Shown here: positions 9,400 through 42,454 of the stretch, one piece after another
How the letters are laid out: every line of letters starts with the position of its first letter
How positions within the stretch are numbered: the stretch's first letter is position 1
DNA from: Dehalococcoidia bacterium
Lineage (GTDB): Bacteria > Chloroflexota > Dehalococcoidia > GIF9 > JAUXIO01
Reading direction: 5' to 3'
NCBI GenBank assembly: GCA_030620975.1
Contig: JAUXIO010000006.1
Coordinates: forward strand, 1 to 42,880
Length of the DNA: 42,880 bases
Made by a program: the position numbers and the translations under genes
Notes under the pieces: model-generated
Told to the model about the DNA's origin: nothing
Seen by the model: the letters and a program-made list of their open reading frames with translations, nothing else
Database searches by the model: none

Positions 9400-10767
9400 T
9401 TACGGCCAGTACAATTCTCGTGCCGTTTTCTTCAAATCATCCCTAAAATCAGGGCGGGCAACGACAGTAAGCTCCTCAGCTCTCTCTCGCTGCGACTTCC
9501 CTCTGAGCCGAGCAATGCCATACTCAGTAACTACAATATCGGCTAGCGTATGAGGCACTGTAATCTTTGACCCACATCTCAGCATGGGCACAATGCGAGA
9601 AATAGCTCCATCTTTAGCCGTTGATGGAAAAACGATGATGAATCTTCCGTTTTTAGATAGGTAACTGCCTATAGAAAAAGCAAGTAAGCCTCCGGCACCA
9701 CTAAGCATCTGAGGCCCCATAGACTCGGCATTAACTTGTCCAGTCAAATCTACTTCTAAAGCATTATTAATTGTCACCATGTTATCCAGTGCCCCTATTG
9801 TCCTGGGGTCATGTGTATACTCAATATCACGCAATTCAAACATCGGGTTCATGTGGACAAAGCTCATGTCTTCAGTCGTTCCCCCGCCGATAGCAGTAGC
9901 CACAGCCTTACCTCTATCCAAAGTCTTGTATTTGCCCGTAATCACTCCCGCTCTTACCAATCTTATGATGCCTGCGGGAGTTACCTCAGAATGCCAGCCA
10001 ATATCACATCTATCATCAAGCAAACCGGCGCGAATGAGAGTTTCGCTCGTACTGCCCTGACCAACTTGAATGGTATCGCCATCATGAATCAAAGTGGTAA
10101 CATAAGCACAAATTTGCTTCTGCTCCTCTGTAACCGCCGTCAGTGGTTTCCCATCTAAACGAACCTCACCCGGCTTTCTGCCAGTGTGTGGATGCTCCAC
10201 AAAGTAATCTATTTGCGAAACGTGAACAAAATTATCACCACAAGTTCTAATCAGCCGGTCATTAACTTCAGCTAGAACTAATTTGGCTTTGGCCACCCAG
10301 TGCCTTTTATCATATACTGAAGCACCGAAGCTACAAAAACCATCGCCATCAGGGGGTGAGACTTCAACAAAAAGGACGTCCGCATCCCATTTATCCGGAA
10401 GTTTACCTGTAATACACAAACCGCCTATTACGGCATCTCCCCTCCTTTGGGCCAGGTGATCACTGGCAACTCCTCCAGAAGCAGCAAAGCCAATTTTAAC
10501 CATAAAAGAATCTTCCCACCCCACATCCCACCAGCCAAAATCAACCGTGGGAGAGCCCATAAATATATGTACCCCTCTGAGTTCTTCCTTCCGACTTGCC
10601 AAAGCAAGACACAATGCTAAAGGGTCTCTGCCTATGGGACAAACGACATTATCTCCAGATTTAACCTTCCTAACAGCTTCCTCAGCCGAAATCTTCTTTC
10701 GCTCATACTCCTGTCGCCAATTGGGGTCCAATTTTACTTTCCCTATATATTGCTTTGTCCAATCCAT
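9400..10767 (-). CDS. CoA-transferase, acetyl-CoA hydrolase/4-hydroxybutyrate CoA-transferase family
   Basis: A 455-residue single-chain CoA-transferase of the COG0427 type (Cat1/Cat2/AbfT group). The catalytic glutamate that forms the glutamyl-CoA thioester is Glu261, in the characteristic GWHSE motif. The nucleotide-binding glycine stretch (VGQGSTSETL) and the C-terminal EYGIARLRGK signature are also present. It is clearly paralogous to the enzyme at 38399, sharing GDNF-H--IDYFVEH, SESE-like MLSG-GG and an identical YWP terminus. It probably moves CoA between acyl groups, but its acids are unknown. It lies downstream of clpP after a 185-base gap, so it probably has its own promoter. Confidence 0.88.
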   Translation of the reverse strand: MDWTKQYIGKVKLDPNWRQEYERKKISAEEAVRKVKSGDNVVCPIGRDPLALCLALASRKEELRGVHIFMGSPTVDFGWWDVGWEDSFMVKIGFAASGGVASDHLAQRRGDAVIGGLCITGKLPDKWDADVLFVEVSPPDGDGFCSFGASVYDKRHWVAKAKLVLAEVNDRLIRTCGDNFVHVSQIDYFVEHPHTGRKPGEVRLDGKPLTAVTEEQKQICAYVTTLIHDGDTIQVGQGSTSETLIRAGLLDDRCDIGWHSEVTPAGIIRLVRAGVITGKYKTLDRGKAVATAIGGGTTEDMSFVHMNPMFELRDIEYTHDPRTIGALDNMVTINNALEVDLTGQVNAESMGPQMLSGAGGLLAFSIGSYLSKNGRFIIVFPSTAKDGAISRIVPMLRCGSKITVPHTLADIVVTEYGIARLRGKSQRERAEELTVVARPDFRDDLKKTARELYWP

Positions 10768-32548: not shown

Positions 32549-34321
32549 GTGCCTAACAAATGGGACGACTTCTTAGACAAGACCTTCACTCTAAAAGAGT
32601 ACGAGGGCGAGAATAAAGTTATCAACTTAAGCGAAGCCATCAAGCGCAATGTGGAGCCGGGTATGACGCTGTATCTGGGGGAGAGAGCTAATGCCCTAAT
32701 CTCTGAGCTCATCAGGCAGTTCTACGGCAGTCAACCCAACTTCACCATGGTTATGCTTTTCGTCATGGAACAGGCCTTAAACCTCGTTCATTGTGGGCTA
32801 GTTAAGAAGATCGTGACCGCCTCCTGTACAGAATTTTTCCCAACTTCAGGGCCAAGCCGCATAATCCGAAACGCCTTCAAAAATAAGACCGTTGAAATCG
32901 AAAACTGGAGTTTGTGTACCCTTAACCAGCAGTTGCTGGCTGGCGCCCTTGATGTGCCATTTATACCCACCAAGTCCATCGGCGGCAGCAGCATGGCTCA
33001 AGAAAACAAAGACTCTTTTTGCCAGCTACCAGACCCCTTCGGAAGCGGCAAACAGGTCAACTTGATGAAAGCGCTTAAGCCGGATATTGCCTTAATCCAT
33101 GGTTGGGCGGCCGACCCCGCGGGTAACACAATCGTGGCTCCCTGTGCAATTGGTGGTGAATATAGCCACGGAGCAAAAGCGAGCAAAAACGGTGTAATAG
33201 TAAGCGTGGAGCAAATCGTATCTACACAATTTATCAGAGAACATTCAGCCTTGGTTGGTATTCCAGCGGGCATAGTAAATTCAGTTTCACTGATACCATT
33301 TGGAGCACATCCCCACGGAATGGTAACCGATTACGGTGTAAAGGAATTTCAGCCCTATGCCGATGATTATGAGTTCACAAGAGAGCGCAGGCAAGCCTCT
33401 CGAGAGCCCCAAAACATGGACAATTGGATAAAAAATTGGGTGCTAGACTGCCCCACTCACAATGATTACTTACAAAAATTGGGCAACGACAAAATTTCAT
33501 TTCTTAAAGAAAAGGGAAATAAAAAGGACTGGAGAGATAACTTAGATATTAACGCTATATCTTACAGCCCCGAATATAATTCGCGGGAGATGATGGTTAT
33601 CGCCGCAGCAAGAAAAACAAAAGAGCTAATCTTAAAGAACAGTTATGATGGCGTACTCTGCGGTATAGGCACTTCGGGTTTGCCGGGATGGGTAGCTTAC
33701 TACGACTTAAGAAAGGAGAACTATGATGTTAATCTCTGGATCGGCTCAGGGATTTACGGATTCTCACCCTCCCCTGGCGACCCCCAACTGTGCAGCTTGC
33801 CCACAATAATGAGCGCCCGAATGCTAACCAACGGCTTAAACGCCTATGGTATATTCGTTGGCGGCAGCCACAAGGGAAAGTACATGAGTATTCTATCCGC
33901 AGCACAAGTTGACCAGCATGGCAATCTCAACTCCACAAAAACCTCGGAAACCTCGTATGTCATTGGCTCTGGCGGCGGTAATGACGCCAGTAATGCCAGC
34001 GAGGTACTAGTAGTGATCCCGCAATCGGCAAACCGCTTTGTGCCCCAGGTCTCCTACATTACTTGCCCCGGAGACAATATGACGGTGATAGTATCTGACA
34101 TGGGCATTCTTGAAAGGATAAACGGCGAATTTATCCTCACAACTTATTTCCCAAATCCCAAAATTCCCAATTCACAGGATATAATTAAACAAATACGCGA
34201 GAACTGCGGCTGGGAGCTTAAAATATCACCACAAGTTACAGAGGCACCATCACCTTCTCTAGAAGAGCTGGTTATGCTCAGGGCCTTTGATCCCCAAGGT
34301 TATTTCATTGGCGGCGATTAG
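32549..34321 (+). CDS. Fused GctA-GctB-like CoA-transferase family protein
   Basis: A 590-residue chain that joins the two halves of a class I CoA-transferase. Residues ~15-320 resemble the A subunit (IHGWAADPAGNT is the hallmark stretch); ~340-590 resemble the B subunit (CGIGTSGLPGW, then GGSGGGND-like and a late TYFPN segment). In GctB the catalytic Glu sits in an ESG motif; the matching site here reads I398-G-S-G, with Gly399 in place of Glu. Activity as a CoA-transferase is therefore doubtful; a hydrolase role like the ring-cleaving IpdAB enzymes is possible. GTG start seven bases after AGGAGG. It ends one base from the convergent holA. Confidence 0.8.
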   Translation: MPNKWDDFLDKTFTLKEYEGENKVINLSEAIKRNVEPGMTLYLGERANALISELIRQFYGSQPNFTMVMLFVMEQALNLVHCGLVKKIVTASCTEFFPTSGPSRIIRNAFKNKTVEIENWSLCTLNQQLLAGALDVPFIPTKSIGGSSMAQENKDSFCQLPDPFGSGKQVNLMKALKPDIALIHGWAADPAGNTIVAPCAIGGEYSHGAKASKNGVIVSVEQIVSTQFIREHSALVGIPAGIVNSVSLIPFGAHPHGMVTDYGVKEFQPYADDYEFTRERRQASREPQNMDNWIKNWVLDCPTHNDYLQKLGNDKISFLKEKGNKKDWRDNLDINAISYSPEYNSREMMVIAAARKTKELILKNSYDGVLCGIGTSGLPGWVAYYDLRKENYDVNLWIGSGIYGFSPSPGDPQLCSLPTIMSARMLTNGLNAYGIFVGGSHKGKYMSILSAAQVDQHGNLNSTKTSETSYVIGSGGGNDASNASEVLVVIPQSANRFVPQVSYITCPGDNMTVIVSDMGILERINGEFILTTYFPNPKIPNSQDIIKQIRENCGWELKISPQVTEAPSPSLEELVMLRAFDPQGYFIGGD

Positions 34322-36738: not shown

Positions 36739-38346
36739 ATGCCAGTCATAAAGTCGCGAATCAAGGTAGATAGTGATAAGTTCAAAGATAATAAAGCTTA
36801 TTATCAAACTCTAGTTAAGCAATTAGAGGAACGCGTCGAGCAAGCAAAGGTAGGCGGCTCTGAGCGGGCTAGAACGCTACATAAGGAAAGAGGCAGACTC
36901 TTCGTCAGGGAACGCATAGAGAAAGTTCTGGACCCGGGTAGCTTTTTCTTAGAATTTAACCCTCTGGCAGCTTGGGATATGTATGATAATGAAGTTCCCT
37001 GTGCTGGAATCGTCACTGGCATAGGAATTGTCAGCGGCAAAGAATGTATGCTCATCGCCAATGACCCCACGGTTAAGGGTGGAACATACCACCCTATGAC
37101 GGTTAAAAAGCACGTGCGAGCTCAAGAGATCGCACAAGAAAATCGCCTCCCCACCATATACCTCACCGATTCTGGCGGCGCTTTCCTACCACTACAAGAA
37201 GATGTCTTCCCAGACCATTATCACTTTGGTCGTTTCTTCTACAATCAGGCGCAAATGTCCGCGATGGGAATTCCCCAGATTTGCTTGGTTTTTGGTTTAT
37301 GTACTGCTGGTGGAGCTTACGTCCCAGCCATGTCAGATGATGTGGTACAAGTAAAGAAGTGGGGCTGCATCTTCATTGGCGGTCCGCCTATGGTCAAAGC
37401 GGCCACCGGTGAAGATATAGATGCCGAAGCTCTCGGCGGCCCTGATGTCCACTGCCGAATTTCAGGGGTTTCTGATTATTACGCTAGGGATGATGCCCAC
37501 GCCTGTGAGATTTGCCGAGACATCGTCGCCCACCTCAATTCAGTCAAACACAACCCGCTTGAGATGCAAGCTCCCGAAGAACCTGCTTATGACCCCGAGG
37601 AAATTTACGGAATTATTAACAAAAAACCACAGGAATTCTTTGACATGCGCGAAATTATAGCTCGCACCGTTGATGGCAGCCGATTTGACGAATTCAAAGC
37701 CCTTTACGGAACGACTCTTATCACCGGTTTTGCCCACATTAATGGCTACCCTGTAGGAATCTTGGGCAATAATGGGATACTTTTCCCAGACTGTGCCGTT
37801 AAAGGTGCCCATTTCATTGAGCGCTGCTGTCAGCGCCACATTCCTTTACTCTACATGCATAATGTTATGGGGTTCTCAGTAGGTAGCAAGGCGGAGCGCG
37901 AGGGCATACCCAAGCACGGTGCCAAGCTGGTTATGACTACGGCAAATGCAGCAGTCCCCAAGTTTACCGTCTTCGTTAGCGGTTCCATCGGAGCCGGAAA
38001 CTATGGCATGTGCGGTCGAGGTTATCAAGGACGCTTGCTATTTGTATATCCCAGTAGCTATTGCTCAGTTATGGGTGGTCAGGTAGCAGCGGGTATACTC
38101 ACCAGGATAAAAACAGATGCTCTAAAAAGAGCGGGCAAAACTGCTACTAAAGAGGAGCTGGATAAGTTAGCACAGGAAACCAGGGAAAAGTATGATTATA
38201 CCGCCGGCCCCTATTTCTCTACCGCCCACCTTTATGATGATGGCATCATTGACCCGGTTGAAACTCGCCAATATCTTACTGCTGGCATATCAGCTTCTGT
38301 AAATGCACCGATTCCGGACACCAAATTCGGCGTTATCCGCTTGTAA
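36739..38346 (+). CDS. Acyl-CoA carboxylase, carboxyltransferase (beta) subunit
   Basis: A 535-residue crotonase-fold carboxyltransferase that moves CO2 between carboxybiotin and an acyl-CoA. The sequence most resembles 3-methylcrotonyl-CoA carboxylase beta: TDSGGAFLPLQ and CTAGGAYVPAMSDD in the N-terminal half, and an oxyanion stretch GAGNYGMCGRGYQ in the C-terminal half. Related chains also serve in biotin-dependent decarboxylases (glutaconyl-CoA type). No biotin carboxylase or biotin-carrier gene is in the window, so the partner must be elsewhere. AAAGGAGG precedes the ATG. First gene of the right-hand operon. Confidence 0.9.
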   Translation: MPVIKSRIKVDSDKFKDNKAYYQTLVKQLEERVEQAKVGGSERARTLHKERGRLFVRERIEKVLDPGSFFLEFNPLAAWDMYDNEVPCAGIVTGIGIVSGKECMLIANDPTVKGGTYHPMTVKKHVRAQEIAQENRLPTIYLTDSGGAFLPLQEDVFPDHYHFGRFFYNQAQMSAMGIPQICLVFGLCTAGGAYVPAMSDDVVQVKKWGCIFIGGPPMVKAATGEDIDAEALGGPDVHCRISGVSDYYARDDAHACEICRDIVAHLNSVKHNPLEMQAPEEPAYDPEEIYGIINKKPQEFFDMREIIARTVDGSRFDEFKALYGTTLITGFAHINGYPVGILGNNGILFPDCAVKGAHFIERCCQRHIPLLYMHNVMGFSVGSKAEREGIPKHGAKLVMTTANAAVPKFTVFVSGSIGAGNYGMCGRGYQGRLLFVYPSSYCSVMGGQVAAGILTRIKTDALKRAGKTATKEELDKLAQETREKYDYTAGPYFSTAHLYDDGIIDPVETRQYLTAGISASVNAPIPDTKFGVIRL

Positions 38347-38398: not shown

Positions 38399-39727
38399 AT
38401 GGTAGATTGGCAGGAGGAATACAAGAAAAAGTTAGTATCTGCAGAAGAAGCTATCAGCATTATCAAATCTGAGCAGCGGGTGGCTTTTGCTTATGGTGCC
38501 GAGCCCCAGGCTTTAGGACTGGCTCTGTGCTCCAGATTGGGCGACTTAGAGAATGTAAGGCTCGTGGTGCCAGCGCCGGGAAGGGATTTTGGCTGGTATG
38601 ACCCAGGCTGGGAAATGTCCTTTCAGATAGAGGTTGGCTTCATTCTACCCATGGTAAGAAACATGATAGAGGAAAGAAGGGGTGACTACATTATCAGCGG
38701 CTTGGTTTGGGCACAGCCACCTGGCGTAAGACCAAACCCAGATGTACTGCTTATGCAGCTATCAACCCCAGACGACCACGGCTTCTGTGGCTTCGGAAAT
38801 TCCCTCTGGGACAAGAAAGAAGCAGTCAGGGATGCCAAAATGGTCATAGCTGAAGCCAATCCAAGACTAATCCGAACTTACGGCGACAATTTCATCCACA
38901 TGTCAGAGATAGACTATTTTGTGGAGCATATCCCCACTGGGAAAACCCCCGGAGCTACGGACATACTGGGCAGAAAAAGCACCGGACCCGGGGAGGTGGA
39001 AAAGACAATAGCTGAGAGCATCGCCAGCATAATCAATGACGGCGATTGCCTGGAGATCGGCGTCGGCGGTGCTGCTGAATGGCTACCACTAATAGGAGTT
39101 CTGGATAATAAGCATGACCTTGGCTGGCATTCAGAGAATACCCCCAGAGGCATAGCGACTTTAATGCGCAACGGAGTAATCAACAGCAAGCGCAAGCAAA
39201 TTAAAACGGGCATACATGTCGCCACCGCGGTTGGCGGCGGTACCAGGGAGGAAATGGACTGGATCGCCAATAATCCACTGATTGAAGTGCACAGCTCCTT
39301 CTGGGTTCTAAACCCCGCTGTCATCTGTCAGAACGATAATGTGGTGGCTATCAACAGTTGTCTTTCCATAGACCTGACCGGTCAGATTGCCTCTGAGTCT
39401 TTGGGGCCCACCATGCTGAGCGGCACTGGCGGGCAACTAACCTTCGCCATCGGAGCTGCACTATCCAAAGGCGGCCGCAATATTACTTGCTGCCGCTCCA
39501 CGGCAAAAACCAAAGAGGGAACGATCTCACGCATTGTGCCACAATTGCCAGTGGGAACCATCATAACTGTACCCCGCGTGCTGGCTGACATGGTCATTAC
39601 CGAATACGGTATCGCCAGGCTTCGGGGAAAAACTCAGCGAGAGCGAGTTGAAGAACTCATCGCCGTTGCCCATCCCGACTTCCGCGCCGAGCTGAGAAAG
39701 GAAGCACAGAGGCTGTATTGGCCCTAA
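38399..39727 (+). CDS. CoA-transferase, acetyl-CoA hydrolase/4-hydroxybutyrate CoA-transferase family
   Basis: A 442-residue COG0427-type CoA-transferase. The ATG at 38399 follows AGGGGGTG with eight-base spacing and aligns with the paralogue; the ORF-track start at 38303 lies within the preceding gene and adds unrelated residues. Catalytic Glu246 lies in GWHSENTP, and the C-terminal EYGIARLRGK is intact. By eye it is roughly 45% identical to the protein at 9400 along most of its length. In this operon it probably activates a carboxylic acid by CoA transfer, or releases the final product. Substrate unknown. Confidence 0.88.
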   Translation: MVDWQEEYKKKLVSAEEAISIIKSEQRVAFAYGAEPQALGLALCSRLGDLENVRLVVPAPGRDFGWYDPGWEMSFQIEVGFILPMVRNMIEERRGDYIISGLVWAQPPGVRPNPDVLLMQLSTPDDHGFCGFGNSLWDKKEAVRDAKMVIAEANPRLIRTYGDNFIHMSEIDYFVEHIPTGKTPGATDILGRKSTGPGEVEKTIAESIASIINDGDCLEIGVGGAAEWLPLIGVLDNKHDLGWHSENTPRGIATLMRNGVINSKRKQIKTGIHVATAVGGGTREEMDWIANNPLIEVHSSFWVLNPAVICQNDNVVAINSCLSIDLTGQIASESLGPTMLSGTGGQLTFAIGAALSKGGRNITCCRSTAKTKEGTISRIVPQLPVGTIITVPRVLADMVITEYGIARLRGKTQRERVEELIAVAHPDFRAELRKEAQRLYWP

Positions 39728-39799
39728 ATCTTCCCAAGGTCAGGGCTCTAGCTTTTTAAATATTAAAAATAATAAAGTAAACTATTAAGGAGGCTGAGA

Positions 39800-39973
39800 A
39801 TGGATAAGGAAAGAAAATGTGCTTGGTGTGGGGAAACAATGTTACCTAAGGTAGACCGCAAGAAAAGCGATTTTGGAGACATAGTAGAGAGAAAATGTTC
39901 TAAGTGTGGCAAAGTGGTGGCGGTTTACCTTGAGTCAGAAGGGGAATTTCTCCCTAAGATGCGCTCATATTGA
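39800..39973 (+). CDS. Small two-CxxC zinc-ribbon protein
   Basis: Not in the ORF track because of its size. The 57-residue product begins MDKERKCAWCGETML and has a second knuckle CSKCGKVVA, spaced so that the four Cys should bind one zinc (CxxC-x22-CxxC). Its start is set by AAGGAGG six bases upstream, as strong a ribosome-binding site as in the flanking genes, and it lies in the gap between the CoA-transferase and the MaoC-like gene, on the same strand. The end (FLPKMRSY) has no known motif. I do not recognise the family. A structural or regulatory partner of the operon enzymes is one possibility. Confidence 0.75.
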   Translation: MDKERKCAWCGETMLPKVDRKKSDFGDIVERKCSKCGKVVAVYLESEGEFLPKMRSY

Positions 39974-40016: not shown

Positions 40017-41240
40017 ATGGTAGAGAAAACTGAAACCAAAATGGCAGAAACATATATTACCGATGAACGGCTGACAGATTGGGAAAAAAGAATTGGGATG
40101 GATTTGCGCGTTGGCAATATTTACAACCAAAATGTGTCATACGAGGCAATAAGAAATTTTGCCAATGGAATAGGCGATGATAATCCATTATATCGAGACC
40201 CGGAGTATGCCAAGAAGACCAAATTTGGAGCGCTAGTAGCTTCTCCCGCTTGGCCAGGCAGCGTCTTTCCACATTGGGTGCTGCAGGGTTTGCCAGGAGT
40301 TCATGCTGACCACTCAGCTTCAGATTGGGAAAACCTAAAGCCAATATATGTCAACGACAAAATCACTCCAAAGTGCTACTTCGTGGGCTACGATGTAAAA
40401 AGCAGTAAGTTCGCCGGAAAGACTGCGTTTGAATACCAGAGGTTTGAGTACTGGAACCAGAAGAATGAACTAGTGTCCGTGGGACACAATTTGCTCGTAA
40501 GATATGAGAGGCAAACGGCAAAGAAAGCATCATCTGAAGGTAAGGGTAAATATGACGAGTTCCAGTTGCCTCATCCCTGGACCGAGGAAGAACTCAATAA
40601 GGTAGATGAAGATGCCCTGGCTGAGGAGATACGAGGCTCAAAGGTAAGATACTGGGAAGATGTGAAAGTTGGAGATGAGCTGAAGCCAGTGGTCAAAGGC
40701 CCCTTTGGCATGACAGATATAGTTGCTTACTGTGCTGGAGCAGCTCCAGTGCAGCTTGCCGCCCACGGCGTTCAACTTAAATTATATAAGAGGCACCCGG
40801 CGTGGGGCTTCCGGCATTCTGTAAACCATTCATGGGAACCCATCTACGCAGTTCACTACTTGCATGAGGCAGCTTGGGCTGCCGGCGCCCGCTATGCCTA
40901 CGATGTGGGAATTCAGAGGCATTGCTGGTTGGTCAATCTGCTCACTAACTGGATGGGCGACGAAGGCTGGATAAAATCATGCAATGCCCAGTACCGTCAG
41001 TTCGTATATCATTCAGATGTAGTATGGTTCACCGGCAAAGTCATCAAGAAATACGTTGATGAGAACGGGGAATACTGCGTGGATATCGAAACTCACGGCA
41101 TAAATCAGAGAAAAGCTGACACCATACCTGGTACTTCCACGGTAATTCTCCCATCGAGGGAGAAGGGAACCTGGCCCGTAGAGAAGAGATTGCCATCAAA
41201 GGAGTGGCGTGGCACAGGCAAGGGAGTTTACTTCGATTAG
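40017..41240 (+). CDS. MaoC-like double-hotdog acyl-CoA hydratase/dehydratase
   Basis: A 407-residue protein with two hotdog domains. The N-terminal one (about 20-170) has the loop GIGDDNPLYRD, the FAS1/MaoC_dehydrat_N version of the hydratase-2 motif, where the usual catalytic His of GDxNPxH is Tyr59. The C-terminal domain (about 215-360) retains VGDELKP and MTDIVAYCAGA but lacks a clear GDxNP. Members hydrate trans-2-enoyl-CoA or dehydrate 3-hydroxyacyl-CoA. Because the standard Asp-His pair is not obvious in either half, activity should be seen as probable, not certain. AAAGGAG precedes the ATG; a second Met lies eight codons in. Confidence 0.78.
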   Translation: MVEKTETKMAETYITDERLTDWEKRIGMDLRVGNIYNQNVSYEAIRNFANGIGDDNPLYRDPEYAKKTKFGALVASPAWPGSVFPHWVLQGLPGVHADHSASDWENLKPIYVNDKITPKCYFVGYDVKSSKFAGKTAFEYQRFEYWNQKNELVSVGHNLLVRYERQTAKKASSEGKGKYDEFQLPHPWTEEELNKVDEDALAEEIRGSKVRYWEDVKVGDELKPVVKGPFGMTDIVAYCAGAAPVQLAAHGVQLKLYKRHPAWGFRHSVNHSWEPIYAVHYLHEAAWAAGARYAYDVGIQRHCWLVNLLTNWMGDEGWIKSCNAQYRQFVYHSDVVWFTGKVIKKYVDENGEYCVDIETHGINQRKADTIPGTSTVILPSREKGTWPVEKRLPSKEWRGTGKGVYFD

Positions 41241-41281: not shown

Positions 41282-42454
41282 ATGGAGCTTCGAGACATAA
41301 GGGATTTCGGTCTAAGCGAAGACCAAAAAATGGTAAGGCAGATGGCTATAGACTTCGGCGAGAAGGAGATATTGCCGGTCATAGAGGAATATGAAGCCGA
41401 GGGGCGCTACCCCAAAGACATCGTTAACAAGCTGGGTGAACTGGGCTTCCTAGGCCCTTTTGTTCCCCCGGAATATGGCGGCGCCGGCATGGACTTCCTG
41501 AGCTACGGTATAATCTGCGAGACAGTAGCTTATTACGACTGGGTATGCGCTTCAGCAATCTCAGTTCAAATGTCACTTGTGGGTTCCGGAATTCTGCGCT
41601 TCGGTACTGAGGAGCAGAAGCAAGAGTTCCTGGTACCTCTAGCCAGCGGGAAAAAGCAAGCTTCAGGTTCCCTCACTGAACCTAACGCTGGTACTGACCT
41701 AGCTAGCTTAACCACCAGGGCAGTGCGAGATGGTGATGACTATATCCTCAATGGCAATAAGACATACATCTCCCATGCCACCCACGCTGATATACTGCTT
41801 ACCTTAGCCACCACCGACCCAGCACTCAGGCACAAAGGTATCTGTGCCTTCTTGGTAGAAAACCCATCCCCAGGCATCAGCACCAGCAAGCTGCCTATAT
41901 GGGGCATGACCAGGGGTGATACCTGCGATGTGGCTTATGAAAATGTCCGCGTGCCAGCAAAGAATATGCTCCTCGGAGAAAACCGAGGCTGGACAGTCGT
42001 CATGGCAAACCTGGATACGGGAAGATACTCTGTGGCTTGTCGATGTATGGGGCAATCTCAATACTTCGTTGACCAGGCAATTGCCTATGCCAACCAAAGA
42101 GAAACATTTGGGACGTTAATACGCGAATACCAGATGGTCAAGGCAATGATCGCCGATATGGTGGTAAACACAGAGGCAGCCAGGTTGCTGTGCTACCGCG
42201 TTGGTCGTTTGAAGGATGCTGGAGAACAACGCACTGGCTTTGAGGCAGCTCAAGCTAAGCTCTTTGCCAGCGATACTGCAGTTAAGAGTGCCTTAGACTG
42301 CATCCAGATCCACGGCGGTGTTGGTGCGACCAAAGATTACTCCTTTGGACACAAGCTGCTCGAAGCGAAGGTGCTCCAGATCGGCGAGGGCACCAACCAG
42401 ATACAGAGAAGAATGATTGCCGACTACGCTTTAGGGATGCTAAAACAAAAGTAA
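41282..42454 (+). CDS. Acyl-CoA dehydrogenase
   Basis: A 390-residue FAD enzyme that introduces the alpha-beta double bond into an acyl-CoA. FAD/substrate stretch ASGSLTEPNAGTDLASL, central beta domain, and helical domain with RETFGTLIREYQ. Unlike the dehydrogenase at 16100, the canonical catalytic Glu is present: Glu369 in IGEGTNQIQR. AAAGGAGGG precedes the ATG. It is the last gene of the operon, followed 41 bases later by a strong hairpin. With the hydratase, CoA-transferase and carboxyltransferase it outlines a CoA-ester degradation route; glutaryl- or short branched-chain substrates are plausible but not shown. Confidence 0.93.
   Translation: MELRDIRDFGLSEDQKMVRQMAIDFGEKEILPVIEEYEAEGRYPKDIVNKLGELGFLGPFVPPEYGGAGMDFLSYGIICETVAYYDWVCASAISVQMSLVGSGILRFGTEEQKQEFLVPLASGKKQASGSLTEPNAGTDLASLTTRAVRDGDDYILNGNKTYISHATHADILLTLATTDPALRHKGICAFLVENPSPGISTSKLPIWGMTRGDTCDVAYENVRVPAKNMLLGENRGWTVVMANLDTGRYSVACRCMGQSQYFVDQAIAYANQRETFGTLIREYQMVKAMIADMVVNTEAARLLCYRVGRLKDAGEQRTGFEAAQAKLFASDTAVKSALDCIQIHGGVGATKDYSFGHKLLEAKVLQIGEGTNQIQRRMIADYALGMLKQK

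Follow-up and report, generated by a model that had tools for sequence, protein, structure and literature searches.

A conserved 57-residue zinc-ribbon protein encoded directly upstream of a double-hotdog MaoC-type dehydratase in Dehalococcoidia, and its possible role as an accessory subunit

Directly upstream of the gene for a double-hotdog MaoC-type acyl-CoA dehydratase, the window (the whole stretch of Dehalococcoidia DNA analysed here, 42,880 nucleotides) encodes a conserved zinc-ribbon protein of 57 residues, for which ZR is used below as shorthand (positions 39800-39973, + strand). The explanation that we favour, with a probability of roughly 0.55, is that ZR is a small accessory subunit of the dehydratase encoded downstream of it. 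The four cysteines of ZR would hold one metal ion, probably zinc, and so rigidify the ribbon; the ribbon together with the conserved C-terminal tail would dock onto the dehydratase; and the docked protein would stabilise the enzyme, or shape its active site or the way in which it contacts the enzymes next to it. We infer zinc binding, and likewise the physical docking of ZR and MaoC and its effect on the enzyme.

It is evident that ZR is a real gene under selection. A Shine-Dalgarno sequence, AAGGAGG (39787-39793, + strand), is followed by six bases (ctgaga) and an ATG at 39800, and the frame, whose stop codon ends at 39973, translates as MDKERKCAWCGETMLPKVDRKKSDFGDIVERKCSKCGKVVAVYLESEGEFLPKMRSY. 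The protein carries two CxxC pairs, C7/C10 and C33/C36, separated by 22 residues (CAWCG, then CSKCG, in a CxxCG-x21-CxxCG arrangement), and its C-terminus extends 21 residues past the last cysteine and bears the conserved tail EGEFLPKMRSY. The first-pass annotation had pointed to the ribosome-binding site with its six-base spacing, to the two knuckles 22 residues apart and to a position between two operon enzymes as signs of a real gene, and each of these has been borne out, a CoA-transferase being encoded upstream and MaoC downstream. When 100 windows of the same dinucleotide make-up were simulated, none held an ORF of at least 50 residues with a GGAGG-preceded ATG and a CxxC-x(18-26)-CxxC pattern, against one in the real window. 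Elsewhere in the class nine genomes have an orthologue, which makes ten genomes in eight families (by family codes), with identities of 61 to 25% and lengths of about 50-63 residues. In the alignment of all ten proteins C7, W9, C10, G26, E30, C33 and C36 are invariant, and seven of the nine orthologues read CPWC at the first knuckle. Relatives that share the operon were examined for loss of the frame or of the cysteines, on which the gene call could have foundered; none was seen, the four cysteines being invariant throughout. Purifying selection is apparent from the comparison of the window with genome G008, for which dN is 0.27 and dS 1.56 (dN/dS ~0.17), with substitutions at the three codon positions numbering 13/12/28. 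This conservation across nine further genomes is far above chance. The default minimum length of common gene finders lies below 57 codons.

Central to the proposed function is the constancy of the neighbouring enzyme. At every one of the ten loci, ZR is immediately followed on the same strand by a double-hotdog MaoC protein of about 400 residues, 61-79% identical across loci to that of the window, which itself has 407 residues (FAS1_DH_region / MaoC_dehydratas; 40017-41240, + strand) and a C-terminal extension, RGTGKGVYFD. The distance from the ZR stop to the MaoC start, measured to the first listed start codon, is at most 43 nt in nine loci (the lowest value, -8, being an overlap) and reaches 151 nt in the tenth, L031; individually it is 43 nt in the window, 37 in L027, 36 in L028 and L030, 20 in L026, 18 in L029, 12 in L032, 0 in L034 and -8 in L024. 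The two genes were nowhere found fused. An invariably upstream position and tight spacing, with the genes overlapping in L024 and touching in L034, would also suit an assembly chaperone or a translation-coupled leader without a lasting role in the mature enzyme. However, the gap in L031 is too long for strict coupling, and the conserved residues include the metal site and a tail that is matched in the enzyme, and we consider such a role improbable.

All other neighbours vary, which leaves ZR and MaoC as the constant unit; in L026, L030 and L031 the gene before ZR points the other way, which reduces the minimal unit to ZR and MaoC. An acetyl-CoA hydrolase/transferase-type CoA-transferase (38399-39727, + strand) lies directly upstream of ZR in the window and in the relatives L024, L027, L028 and L032, and its presence there in five of the ten loci speaks for a reading in which ZR serves this enzyme, or the carboxyltransferase of the same operon (MmdA/AccD type; 36739-38346, + strand), instead of the dehydratase. 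Yet the CoA-transferase does not adjoin ZR in L026, L030, L031 and L034 and is found downstream of MaoC in L029, and the carboxyltransferase is near ZR in only three of the ten loci (the window, L027 and L028), MaoC alone being constant; of all the readings weighed here this one is the least probable. Of the options offered in the first-pass annotation, a structural partner of the hydratase is the best supported, on genome evidence only, and a link with the carboxyltransferase finds no support. The next operon gene after MaoC in the window encodes an acyl-CoA dehydrogenase according to its family matches (41282-42454, + strand); L027 and L028 have two acyl-CoA dehydrogenases, and L026 and L030 a CoA ligase downstream. 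Methylmalonyl-CoA mutase-type genes occur near the pair in L026 and L032, which hints at branched or C4 acyl-CoA as substrates. Within the window, similar CoA-transferases are encoded far apart, at 9400-10767 and 38399-39727, and a third, different one at 32549-34321.

The distribution of ZR across genomes follows that of one type of MaoC. A profile search of 393 genomes of the class returned ten matches at E<=3e-22, all adjoining a ZR-type MaoC, and the next at E=6e-6; ZR was never seen away from its MaoC in this search. Matches in G163, G233, G372, G060 and G368 (E 6e-6 to 8e-4) were rejected as far under the family scores and lying in longer or unrelated frames. Extension to the phylum yielded no added member in 400 genomes, and a contig scan with two strict peptide patterns, which may miss distant members, gave ZR matches in Chloroflexota only. 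No relative turned up on plasmids when ZR was the query, nor on viral contigs when the MaoC protein was.

Conversely, a search with the MaoC protein in the same 393 genomes gave 74 places in 43 genomes, the flanks of which were scanned for CxxC-x(15-32)-CxxC frames. ZR is present at 10 MaoC loci (the window included) and absent at 60 more distant homologues, two of which have an unrelated CxxC frame upstream; three loci were uninformative, those of G039 and G098 starting at a contig end and that of G277 missing the relevant stretch. At ~2893 of the last (L079, G277:C102), about 2.6 kb is gone in comparison with L027, comprising the MaoC N-terminus, ZR, the CoA-transferase and part of the carboxyltransferase, which is either a deletion or an assembly fault. 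When the C-terminal extension is left out of the tree, the MaoC proteins that come with a ZR group in a single clade (SH-aLRT 97), and one change of state accounts for the presence of ZR. In three genomes (G066, G116 and G156) a single MaoC copy with ZR coexists with one to three copies without it. The existence of ZR-less homologues in related genomes indicates that ZR is not needed for the MaoC fold in general, and only four positions are fixed in the ZR-bearing and different in the ZR-less proteins, too few for mapping an interface. One locus, L071 (G116:C141:1-11000), has three diverged MaoC paralogues close together, 55, 42 and 37% identical to that of the window and without a zinc ribbon.

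The partner enzyme is itself of a familiar fold. The MaoC protein of the window scores 44 bits against FAS1_DH_region in Pfam (cut-off 22), and the Foldseek matches of the partner enzyme, at E 2e-19 (5i7n) to 2e-13, have the double-hotdog fold. This fold is common to 5i7n, MSMEG_6754 (4v12), the mesaconyl-CoA hydratase MeaC (8hgn) and the Chloroflexus MaoC (4e3e), but the identity to these proteins is ~14%, and their entries name no small zinc-ribbon partner. The N-terminal hotdog is without the catalytic D-x4-H, reading GDxN(P/Q)L(Y/F/W) where R-specific hydratases have GDxNPxH, and the position of the His is aromatic in the aligned homologues. A conserved His (V-H-Y) in the C-terminal domain suggests that activity would still be possible.

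Moreover, the two proteins carry matching C-terminal tails. Of the ten pairs, seven have RGTGKGVYF or a close variant at the end of MaoC, and these are precisely the ones whose ZR carries an R(T/S/N)(F/Y) tail; L029 has the variant GVFLP, and in the ZR of G384 the motif is near the end, not terminal. The pairs of G156, G093 and G022 have neither tail nor extension, and the ZR-less MaoC proteins are without the extension; the MaoC proteins of G039 and G277, where ZR is not visible, also bear it. With a single change of tail state on the tree, such a match hints at contact between ZR and MaoC without proving it. It may reflect shared descent rather than co-evolution, and joint descent would likewise predict the correlation between ZR and MaoC distances (r 0.83). 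From the tails one could go further and regard ZR as an obligate subunit of a two-component double-hotdog dehydratase, docked by way of reciprocal C-terminal tails (...FLPxxRTF in ZR, ...RGTGKGVYF in MaoC), perhaps compensating for the missing N-terminal His, a type of subunit that would be new for MaoC enzymes; we put this forward only tentatively, as a possibility with the odds clearly against it. In L029, ZR and MaoC share a reading frame that is interrupted between the two by one TGA, and the read-through chimera was folded as a computational device (five paired rows, monomer only), with no claim that read-through takes place. In the model, the MaoC part adopts a double-hotdog fold, nearest to 5i7n, MSMEG_6754 and mesaconyl-CoA hydratase, and the pLDDT blocks of ZR and both tails are mostly 50-68, with one of 80. 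Given this low confidence for ZR and the tails, no docking is predicted by what is a weak test.

ZR alone is modelled by AlphaFold as a ribbon of three main strands and a short helix, with a mean pLDDT of 81. Neither Pfam nor NCBIfam gave a family at cut-off (about 24 weak Pfam matches, none close), the PDB sequence search gave no significant match and Foldseek with the model none at E<=0.001. ZR is apparently an undescribed single-domain zinc-ribbon family, not a new kind of system. The CPxCG-related small zinc finger proteins have fewer than 100 residues and two Cys/His patterns 7-40 residues apart, at least one of them CPxCG-like (PMC2253796), and zinc was absent from five of the 14 Haloferax members examined (PMC11241148). 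With 57 residues and 22 between CAWCG and CSKCG, ZR has the size and motifs of this class, and judged by its sequence it would fit there as a new family.

Among the members of this class, Brz of Halobacterium salinarum is encoded directly upstream of bop (PMC2253796); Brz, HVO_2753 and other Haloferax CPxCG proteins resemble ZR in size and knuckles, and Brz also in lying beside the gene that it serves (PMC2253796, PMC11241148). ZR differs from Brz and HVO_2753 in having no family match above cut-off, in belonging to Chloroflexota, in being tied to one enzyme clade and in its conserved C-terminal tail. The main rival to an accessory subunit is a Brz-like protein that would regulate the operon locally, through transcription or RNA binding; ZR shares with Brz the size class, the motif class and the position relative to the target gene (PMC2253796), and three ZR genes do come first in their gene run. 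Five of the ten ZR proteins also match the Brz zinc-ribbon model (PF23454), but at E 0.0088 or worse, far under cut-off, and that of the window is not among them. Further, the members of the ZR family are close to neutral (net charge -1 to +5), which gives no hint of nucleic-acid binding; a regulator ought to be linked to promoters, whereas ZR is tied to one MaoC clade though all other operon genes differ; and an enzyme tail matching that of ZR would not be expected. A regulatory role is in our view unlikely. For the redox or thiol sensor that had also been proposed in the first-pass annotation, in which oxidation would free the metal from the cysteines and switch the pathway, no positive evidence was found: four CxxC cysteines would allow for it, but their pattern and spacing are ordinary for structural zinc ribbons and the ZR alignment holds no other conserved redox residue, so that we consider it highly improbable.

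The closest functional analogy for an accessory subunit is offered by the zinc ribbon-OB proteins of the DUF35 / zf-ChsH2 type (ChsH1-ChsH2, Shy-Sal, SSO2064, PhlB), which partner MaoC hotdogs or thiolases, as known from genome context and co-purification (PMC2954200, PMC11321319). There, too, a zinc ribbon is linked with an acyl-CoA hotdog or thiolase, and on the best reading ZR may work similarly. Unlike these proteins, ZR has no OB domain after the ribbon, and its neighbour is a double-hotdog protein. Membership in DUF35/zf-ChsH2 is ruled out by the absent OB fold and by a score of 16.5 bits (cut-off 23.2) that covers one knuckle only, three of the ten ZR proteins matching at all. Acetone carboxylase is a zinc-containing enzyme complex with a small gamma subunit (PMC5543143). 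This subunit (5svb_C) appears in the Foldseek list of ZR at E 1.7, which is not significant, has about 20 kDa, and no sequence similarity to ZR was found. A literature search found no paper pairing MaoC with a small zinc ribbon.

If ZR is indeed an accessory subunit of its dehydratase, a clade of MaoC dehydratases in uncultured Chloroflexota would need a second small gene, and the enzyme expressed alone would miss ZR. Moreover, genome evidence would then have assigned a specific enzyme partner to a very small zinc protein, in a class that is mostly without known function.
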